From Branchiostoma floridae (taxonomy: Eukaryota; Chordata; Leptocardii; Amphioxiformes; Branchiostomatidae): DNA of 64,000 nt. Under the pieces are notes generated by a model. That model did not search any database, had not been told where the DNA came from, and saw only the letters and a list, made by a program, of their open reading frames with translations. The position numbers and the translations under genes were made by a program. Location of the stretch: NCBI RefSeq assembly GCF_000003815.2, contig NC_049993.1:18598127-18662126 (forward strand). Reading direction: 5' to 3'. This document shows positions 39,801 to 42,800 of the stretch, piece after piece (position 1 is the stretch's first letter; the number at the start of each line of letters is the position of its first letter).

Positions 39801-42800
39801 TGCCCAGATGTGAAGTACGGGAAGAGGATCCATGTGCTGCCCATAGATGACTCCGTGGAGGGCATCACGGGGTGAGTTTCAGAGTGAGTGAGAAAGAGAG
39901 TGAGTGAGTAGAGAGAGTGAGTGAGTGAGTGAGTAGAGAGAGCGCGTGCGCCTGGGCGACGTGGTGAGCGTCCAAGCATGCCCAGATGTGAAGTACGGCA
40001 AGAGGATCCATGTGCTGCCCATCGATGACTCTGTGGAGGGCATCACGGGGTAAGTTTCAGGGGGAAATTGGTTTTGTTTTTACTGGGAGCACAGTATTGC
40101 CATGTAGCCATGGTGGGCAACAACCTGCGCGTGCGTCTGGGCGACGTGGTCAGCGTCCAGGCCTGCCCAGATGTGAAGTACGGCAAGAGGATCCATGTGC
40201 TGCCCATCGATGACTCGGTGGAGGGCATCACGGGGTAAGTTTCAGAGTGAGTGAGAAAGAGAGTGAGTGAGTAGAGAGAGTGAGGGAGTGAGTAGAGAGA
40301 GCGCGTGCGTCTGGGCGACGTGGTCAGCGTCCAGGCCTGCCCAGATGTCAAGTATGGGAAGAGGATCCATGTGCTGCCCATCGATGATTCCGTGGAGGGC
40401 ATCACGGGGTGAGTTTCAGGGGAAAATTGGTTTTGTTTTTACTGGGAGCACAGTATTGCCATGTAGCCATGGTGGGCAACAACCTGCGCGTGCGTCTGGG
40501 CGACGTAGTCAGCGTCCAGGCATGCCCTGATGTCAAGTACGGGAAGAGGATCCATGTGCTGCCCATCGATGACTCCGTGGAGGGGATCACGGGGTACGTT
40601 TCATTGCTTTGAGTAGAGAGAGAGTATGTAGAGAGAGTGAGTGAGTGAGTAGAGAGAGCGGGTGGGTCTGAGCGACGTGGTGAGCGTCCAGGCCTGCCCA
40701 GATGTGAAGTACGGGAAGAGGATCCATGTGCTGCCCATCGATGACTCCGTGGAGGGCATCACGGGGTAAGTTTCAGAGTGAGTGAGTGAATGAGTGTGAG
40801 AAGAGAGAGCGTGTGCGCCTGGGGGACGTGGTCAGCGTCCAGGCCTGCCCAGATGTGAAGTACGGGAAGAGGATCCATGTGCTGCCCATCGATGATTCCG
40901 TGGAGGGAATCACGGGGTAAGTTTCAGAGTGAGTGAGAAAAAGAGTGAGTGAGTAGAGAGAGTGAGTGAGTGAGTAGAGAGAGCGGGTGCATCTGGGCGA
41001 CGTGGTCAGCGTCCAGGCCTGCCCAGATGTGAAGTACGGGAAGAGGATCCATGTGCTGCCGATCGATGACTCCGTGGAGGGCATCACGGGGTGAGTTTCA
41101 GGGGGAAATTGGTTTTGTTTTTACTGGGAGCACAGTATTGCCATGTAGCCATGGTGTGTAACAACCTGCGCGTGTGTCTGGGCGACGTGGTCAGCGTCCA
41201 GGCCTGCCCAGATGTGAAGTACGGGAAGAGGATCCATGTGCTGCCCATCGATGACTCTGTGGAGGGGATCACGGGGTAAGTTTCAGAGTGAGTGAGTGAA
41301 TGAGAGAGAGAGAGAGTGAGTAGAGAGAGCGCATGTGTCTGGGCGACGTGGTCAGCGTCCAGGCCTGCCCAGATGTCAAGTACGGGAAGAGGATCCACGT
41401 GCTGCCCATCAATGACTCCGTGGAGGGGATCACGGGGTAAGTTTCAGAGTGAGTGAGTGAGAGAGAGTAGAGAGAGCGGGTGCGTCTGGGCGACGTGGTC
41501 AGCGTCCAGGCCTGCCCAGATGTGAAGTACGGGAAGAGGATCCATGTGCTGCCCATCGATGATTCCGTGGAGGGCATCACGGGGTAAGTTTCAGATTGAG
41601 TGAGTGACTGAGTGTGAGAAGAGAGAGCGGGTGCGTCTGGGCGACGTGGTCAGCGTCCAGGCCTGCCCAGATGTGAAGTACGGGAAGAGGATCCATGTGC
41701 TGCCCATCGATGATTCCGTGGAGGGCATCACGGGGTGAGTTTCAGAGTGAGTGAGAAAGAGAGTGAGTGAGTAGAGAGATGAGTGAGTGAGTAGAGAGAG
41801 AGAGAGTGAGTGAGTAGAGAGAGTGAGTGAGTAGAGTGAGAGTGTATTGAAGTACGGCAAGAGGATCCATATCTATCGATGACTCTGTGGAGGGCATCAC
41901 GGGGTAAGTTTCAGGGGGAAATTGGTTTTGTTTTTACTGGGAGCACAGTATTGCCATGTAGCCATGGTGCGTAACAACCTGGGAGTGCGTCTGGGCGACG
42001 TGGTCAGCGTCCAGGCCTGCCCAGATGTCAAGTACGGGAAGAGGATCCATGTGCTGCCCATCGATGACTCCGTGGAGGGGATCACGGGGTAAGTTTCAGA
42101 GTGAGTGAGTGAATGAGAGAGAGAGTGAGTGAGTAGAGAGAGCGCGTGCGTCTGGGCGACGTGGTCAGCGTCCAGGCCTGCCCCGATGTGAAGTATGGGA
42201 AGAGGATCCATGTGCTGCCCATCGATGACTCCGTGGGGGGCATCACGGGGTAAGTTTCAGTAGAAAATTGGTTTAATCCATCCAAAATGCTTTATCAGAC
42301 AGGATTTTGTTTTTACTTGGAGCACAGTTTTGTCATGTAGCCATGGTGATTGAGTGAGCGAGTTTATTGTTTGTTGATATTGGGGGGAGGGAGTGAATCA
42401 GGGAGGGAGAGAGTGTGGAAGTGAGCAAGTCTCAGTCATAGCAAAAATAGGACAGACCTTGAAAGCATGCTTGTTGCGGAAGAAAATACTGTTTGCAACA
42501 GTGAGTGTTGCCAACATTTCTTTGAAGAATGTTGCATGTAGGTTGCAATGTATTCAGATGAAACTTGTAGTTGATGAACCTCCTTTCCTTACCCAGCACT
42601 TGGGAACTGCCCACCATTTGCTGCATTTATCTGGAGGGAAAGAAAAACTCTGCTGTTGCCATGGCGATGATACCTAATAGTATAATTGCCTAAGTAGCAG
42701 CAGTGAACAAAAAATTGTATGTATGGAAAAAAAAAAATTGCAGTGTCTAAGCTGTGAAGAAACCAGTATCCTTCAGAAAGTATGAAGTCTAAAGTGAAGT

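Follow-up and report, generated by a model that had tools for sequence, protein, structure and literature searches.

Intronic copies of the VCP exon 3 end in Branchiostoma floridae differ mainly at silent sites, consistent with exchange with the working exon

The intron that follows exon 3 of the VCP gene in the amphioxus Branchiostoma floridae contains 14 copies (13 full and one partial) of the last 35–40 codons of the exon, each with its splice donor, and these copies differ mainly at silent sites. This bias is genuine, with a dN/dS of 0.113 (bootstrap 0.027–0.26) between the 13 full copies, where a neutral repeat would be near 1. From this one haplotype we infer, with a probability of roughly 0.55, that sequence is exchanged in both directions between the working exon 3 end and the intronic array. 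The array belongs to the known class of amphioxus ‘mirages’; the strength of its silent bias appears new relative to the mirage descriptions in PMC3087553 and PMC3902484.

The window, the whole stretch of 64,000 nucleotides that was analysed (C15:18598127-18662126), lies in a 431-contig assembly whose 513 Mb served as the genome search space. Exon 3 of VCP is open, exons 4–18 form one continuous open frame, and exons 3 and 4 join in frame with the end of exon 3 at 39871. Solved VCP/p97 chains were matched by exons 4–18 (E = 0) and by exon 3 (E = 2e-46). One VCP intron holds a 5S rRNA-like sequence, possibly a 5S-derived retrocopy or SINE, which scores 52.4 bits in Rfam (gathering threshold 38). 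Other elements in the window are a tandem array (288-base unit, 4.1 copies) and a LINE-like element, whose ORF encodes a reverse transcriptase domain and has an endonuclease match below the cutoff; an 839-amino-acid ORF beside it combines a DnaJ with a GDSL-like domain.

The sequence ATCACGGG followed by GT occurs at 15 boundaries, namely the end of exon 3 and the ends of all 14 copies listed in Table 1. The GT is built into this pattern, and a BLAST search with no GT requirement returned the identical set of 14 intronic copies. A preliminary description of this DNA had arrived at the same number and had noted one partial copy with a small deletion, which fits the copy ending at 41903; it placed the array start at 39834, and the exonic parts in fact start earlier, at about 39748–39765. 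The GT donor is kept in 14 of 14 copies and GTRAGT in 13, and the repeat length is 147–185 bases. B-start copies begin at codon 1 of the 35, with a purine-rich GAGT/GAGAG spacer upstream. The four A-start copies (2, 4, 8 and 13) begin five codons earlier, after a 64-base spacer that derives from the original intron, which persists 3′ of the last copy. The occurrence of TGGTG in both exon and intron at the A junction suggests a duplication founded on microhomology. A genome search with an 84-base copy placed all 15 reported matches at the VCP exon 3 locus and none at a second locus, a lower bound since only the best candidates were scored.

Table 1. Coordinates of VCP exons, array copies and other features in the window
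Feature	Position	Strand	Remarks
VCP exons 3–18	39618-54362	+	open-frame reading, structure matches
VCP exon 3, working copy	39618..39871	+	last 35 codons = human VCP residues 93–127
Array copy 1	39943..40049	+	6 silent, 0 replacement versus exon
Array copy 2, A-start	40113..40234	+	5′ end + 5 codons
Array copy 3	40302..40408	+	
Array copy 4, A-start	40472..40593	+	donor GTACGT, sole non-GTRAGT
Array copy 5	40659..40765	+	2 replacements, codons 3 and 5
Array copy 6	40810..40916	+	7 silent, 0 replacement
Array copy 7	40984..41090	+	1 replacement, codon 3
Array copy 8, A-start	41154..41275	+	1 replacement, codon 3
Array copy 9	41330..41436	+	3 replacements, one Asp to Asn at 41411
Array copy 10	41477..41583	+	35 codons identical to copy 11
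Array copy 11	41628..41734	+	
Array copy 12, partial	41848..41903	+	small internal deletion
Array copy 13, A-start	41967..42088	+	codon 1 with 2 replacement nucleotides
Array copy 14	42143..42249	+	Glu to Gly at 42237
A-type intron spacer	40050..40113	+	other three begin 40409, 41091, 41904; pairs differ by 0–2 per 64 bases
Intron 3′ of last copy	42250..42349	+	closest to A spacer source; TGGTG in common with exon at A junction (by inspection)
VCP exon 4	42822..42883	+	
VCP acceptor-side copies	45263-45637, 46412-46559, 47356-47390, 48096-48311, 48932-48988, 51334-51400, 53554-53615		exons 7, 8, 9, 10, 11, 15, 17
VCP intron 12 start and exon 13 start	49646-49697, 50331-50382		79% identical
Copy of exon 11 acceptor and exon start	52639-52708		in intron 15
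5S rRNA-like sequence	44341-44460		in VCP intron
CTH-like boundary copies	11384-11582, 15873-16132, 17137-17388, 18753-18955		
LINE-like element and adjoining ORF	28722-35030	−	
Tandem array	4230-5423		

Roughly 57 synonymous and 7 replacement differences from the exon had been counted previously; our pairwise recount over 35 codons in the 13 full copies upheld the direction of the bias and revised the numbers to 60 silent and 10 replacement. Such a count is not independent because two sites recur across copies, an ATA codon found only in the exon (13) and a GCA/GCC site (11), which together supply 24 of the 60 silent differences. Under neutrality, replacements were expected to outnumber silent changes about three to one, an expectation that had been applied to these non-independent counts; the bias survives when each distinct variant is counted once. 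Including the exon, there are 22 silent and 8 replacement variants, where 25–30 % silent would be expected under neutrality (p about 1e-6), so that the move towards a neutral ratio that the preliminary description had set as a test of its claim was not seen. Among the copies alone the variants number 21 and 8, with p ranging from 1e-7 to 4e-4 when the silent fraction is taken as 0.25 to 0.40. The changes singled out earlier, from Asp to Asn and from Glu to Gly, are real, and six silent changes with no replacement were again seen in one copy, the first in the intron (donor 40049). The changes from Arg to Cys or His are real as well, and fall at codon 3 of the 35, not at the first codon.

Replacement variants cluster at the far edge of the copies. 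Codons 6–35 carry only 2 replacement variants in the 13 full copies, and dN/dS among copies is 0.024 (0–0.083) in this zone and 0.87 in codons 1–5. The clustering is modest in statistical terms (6 replacement to 5 silent in codons 1–5 versus 2 to 17 in codons 6–35, p 0.028). Silent variants were not shared between copies significantly more often than replacement variants (p 0.20); each copy has just 26 silent sites. Of the eight distinct replacement variants (40659-42088), five lie on codons equivalent to human VCP R93, R95 and G97. Human disease variants listed for VCP include the changes R95C, R95G and R95H (PMC9222868), and the three array variants at the R95 codon are identical to these.

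The exonic segments and the spacers between them appear to have different histories. Pairwise silent divergence among copies averaged 0.181 per silent site, and was 0.15–0.27 for the copies that adjoin A spacers, whereas the four A spacers themselves differ by a mean of 0.018, ten times less. The exonic parts therefore look older than the repeats that enclose them. Amplification of whole units would homogenize spacer and exonic part alike, which leads us to suggest that the exonic segments were probably replaced after amplification, independently of the spacers. There are 13 distinct exonic haplotypes among the 14 full sequences (exon and 13 copies), and of the 15 pairs formed by shared biallelic core sites, 7 had all four combinations, which suggests reshuffling of silent variants, or recurrent mutation. 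The published silent diversity of B. floridae (π_s) is 0.0397, a value that laboratory inbreeding may have lowered, and the mutation rate is 5.89e-9 per base per generation (PMC12862219); compared with this π_s, silent divergence in the array is about 4.5 times the allelic value.

Smaller copies of exon boundaries were found elsewhere in the window. Seven further VCP exons have acceptor-side copies, ranging from identical to decayed (Table 1). The acceptor and start of exon 11 are also copied far off in intron 15, with one silent difference in 13 codons. At its 5′ end, VCP intron 12 consists of a diverged copy of the exon 13 start, so that coding GGTAAGAC is used as the donor, and tandem duplication is a candidate origin for this intron. 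Boundary copies also occur in a neighbouring gene whose sequence resembles cystathionine gamma-lyase (CTH; identified by eye), at four of its nine candidate exons, one with few coding bases; the copy at 11530-11582 carries four silent changes and one replacement, the latter at the far edge. Thus both genes examined in the window, VCP and CTH, have such copies. In a survey of 81 HMM-matched loci (21 AAA, 30 kinesin and 30 chaperonin), some of which belong to one gene, copies overlapped the match in seven; one of these is VCP, leaving 6 of 80 other conserved-domain loci.

We pooled 23 copies at 15 exons, excluding VCP exon 3. In this pool dS was 0.198 and dN 0.074, and the ratio of 0.37 (0.18–0.70) is near the 0.5 expected, and hence compatible with a neutral copy drifting from a selected exon. 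Copies with at least 90 % identity gave a ratio of 0.13 and the rest 0.61, a contrast that sorting by identity itself favours. The pool was counted without two CTH exons (near 15900 and 18750), which are decayed or have too few coding bases, and, owing to an overlap filter, without locus L017, whose clear copy has two silent changes and no replacement. Were single crossovers to bring the part of a copy nearest the boundary under selection, replacements should gather at the far end of the copy. Such clustering, considered as general support for exchange, was seen at exon 3 and was absent at the 15 other exons (18 silent to 16 replacement versus 27 to 20, p 0.82), and was rejected in that role. 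The exon 3 array stands out from the pool, with a ratio of 0.11 among copies, where neutrality predicts 1.

We propose that the array is a long mirage, a minisatellite that would have arisen when sequence spanning the exon 3 donor was tandemly duplicated, with the short TGGTG sequence shared by exon and intron as the probable starting point. Only the 5′-most copy would continue the exon, and hence it alone would be translated. Short gene-conversion tracts, aided by unequal crossing-over and with partners on the same and on the other chromosome, may transfer sequence from the working exon end to the intronic copies and back. A replacement mutation that reached the working position would be removed by selection, while silent mutations would persist and spread. 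In this way the array would come to store exon-end haplotypes that are cleared of protein changes yet unusually rich in silent ones.

Forward simulations comprised 100 haplotypes with 15 slots and with selection at slot 0 only, for 23 silent and 67 replacement sites; a sampled array was scored as matching at dS ≥ 0.15 and dN ≤ 0.0245. Initial simulations with weak exchange, or with no copy-to-copy exchange, were superseded by symmetric rates and this fixed rule. With no exchange, 0 % of sampled arrays matched. Two-way exchange gave 0–55 % over 28 settings, varying with rates and selection strength: 0–19 % in 15 symmetric settings, with higher shares only where exchange was fast and partly between chromosomes; 3–47 % in five settings of a second set; and 4–55 % in eight settings run side by side with one-way seeding under equal selection, at two selection strengths and two values of theta. 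Slow or mainly within-chromosome settings matched in 0–3 % of arrays, as rarely as one-way seeding. These shares are rough guides rather than probabilities, as one equal setting gave 25 % and 53 % in separate runs and arrays sampled within one run are not independent.

In the better-matching symmetric runs each pair exchanged sequence at 100–250 times the mutation rate, at the top of the range tried, which by our arithmetic comes to about 1e-5 per generation into the exon. A published study of B. floridae reports 9,992 paternal non-crossover events at 6.71 million markers in 104 offspring, with tracts mostly under 200 bp (PMC12500494). By our division of these counts, the simulated rate is of the same order as allelic non-crossover conversion, and the published tracts are the size of the exonic segment.

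The preliminary description had proposed that the array is continually re-seeded from, or converted with, the selected exon across alleles. The direction of this proposal appears right, and its one-way form deserves separate consideration. Here the working exons of different alleles would repeatedly generate or overwrite the copies with no feedback, and silent differences would be allelic. The selected exon would be a sufficient source, amphioxus alleles are highly different (π_s 0.0397; PMC12862219), and young copies with silent changes only also occur at some other exons. However, silent divergence drops along with the replacements: one-way seeding fast enough to leave few replacements gave simulated values of 0.03–0.07 at the published π_s, against 0.18 observed. 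Matching arrays made up 0–1 % in 18 settings at theta 0.04, the published π_s, and 0–7 % in nine settings at theta 0.08, where the highest shares (6–7 %) lay above those of some two-way settings. In the 12 one-way settings run side by side, the shares were 0–0.8 % and 0.5–6.3 % at the two theta values. In these side-by-side runs the simulated silent diversity of the working exon end was 0.11–0.20 with two-way exchange versus 0.03–0.07 with one-way seeding. One-way re-seeding is therefore disfavoured, and we consider it unlikely.

Repeats of 147–185 bases are difficult to assemble, and the genome draft contained one wrongly assembled mirage (globin mirage study; PMC3087553), so an artefact in which alleles or reads were strung into a false array has to be weighed. 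The 13 distinct exonic haplotypes among 14 sequences exceed what two alleles could supply, the spacers vary in type and length in an orderly way, and smaller copies of the same kind lie at other VCP and CTH boundaries in the window, all of which makes an artefact improbable.

A dN/dS far below 1 and a GT donor in all 14 copies might also point to protein-level selection on the copies themselves, as alternative exon ends or cassette exons, and in-frame entry into B-type copies is possible on paper (by inspection). The earlier suggestion that the copies serve as alternative exon ends nevertheless fared badly. If unspliced, 14 of the 15 ends, the exon included, meet TAA or TGA at once in frame; the 30 bases upstream of B-type copies are only 10–20 % pyrimidine; and the four spacer AG sites all put A-type copies out of frame (by inspection), even though codons 6–35 of these copies are free of replacements. 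Throughout the array sequence we found no arrangement of usable acceptor, donor and kept frame around each copy, and mirages are said to leave splicing undisturbed (PMC3087553, PMC3902484). Coding use of the copies thus seems very improbable. An ordinary neutral mirage, its silent bias owed to mutation bias or to the shared ancestry of the counts, is disfavoured to the point of being barely credible: two sites do inflate the pairwise counts and the pooled ratio at other exons does lie near that of copy-then-decay, but the distinct variants among the copies alone give p < 1e-3 even at 40 % silent, and the four spacers inside the array are ten times less diverged.

Mirages are amphioxus minisatellites that lie across exon/intron boundaries in tandem copies, with examples in Adh3, the globins BflGb6 and BflGb9, troponin C and PGBD5 (PMC3087553, PMC3902484; original description Canestro 2002, as cited in PMC3087553). 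Like them, the exon 3 array consists of boundary-spanning tandem copies in an intron, is local to its gene and keeps splice signals in many copies; mirages may lie on the donor or the acceptor side, and units in Adh3 and the globins measure 10–160 bp. Length polymorphism or somatic instability is a further characteristic of the class. It differs in having 14 copies, against at most six in the described globin mirages, and in its strong purifying signature and tenfold divergence over the spacers, neither of which is mentioned for mirages in the available excerpts of PMC3087553 and PMC3902484. The Rogers model of intron gain (cited in PMC3087553) likewise involves tandem duplication, inside a gene, of sequence that bears splice sites; no new intron was seen to arise from the exon 3 array, and VCP intron 12 is the better candidate.

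Exchange among tandem repeats and mosaic copies recall concerted evolution by gene conversion. Homogenization at exon 3 is, in contrast, incomplete and selective, with a near-constant protein and unusually diverse silent sites. Silent-cassette systems, such as antigenic-variation loci and bird immunoglobulin pseudogenes, generate protein diversity. They resemble the array in that incomplete copies lie untranslated next to a single expressed one and are proposed as its sequence donors. The exon 3 array instead preserves the protein, its donor role is a proposal only, and protein-changing donor diversity was not found in codons 6–35 of the 13 full copies beyond the two variants noted above.

Mirages have been described as leaving splicing intact or as a source from which new introns can form (PMC3087553, PMC3902484). 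We tentatively suggest a further role, in which an intronic library of exon endings may feed an essential single-copy gene by short two-way conversion, such that untranslated copies are purged of protein changes and silent diversity at the exon end is raised several-fold above the genome average. The two-way model predicts that silent diversity at the exon 3 end lies far above that of the rest of VCP. If the exchange is real, untranslated, non-coding repeats would show the mark of selection on a protein, and could in turn feed an essential gene. This would bear on the use of dN/dS as evidence of coding function, on variant calling and estimates of silent diversity in amphioxus, and on how boundary repeats persist.
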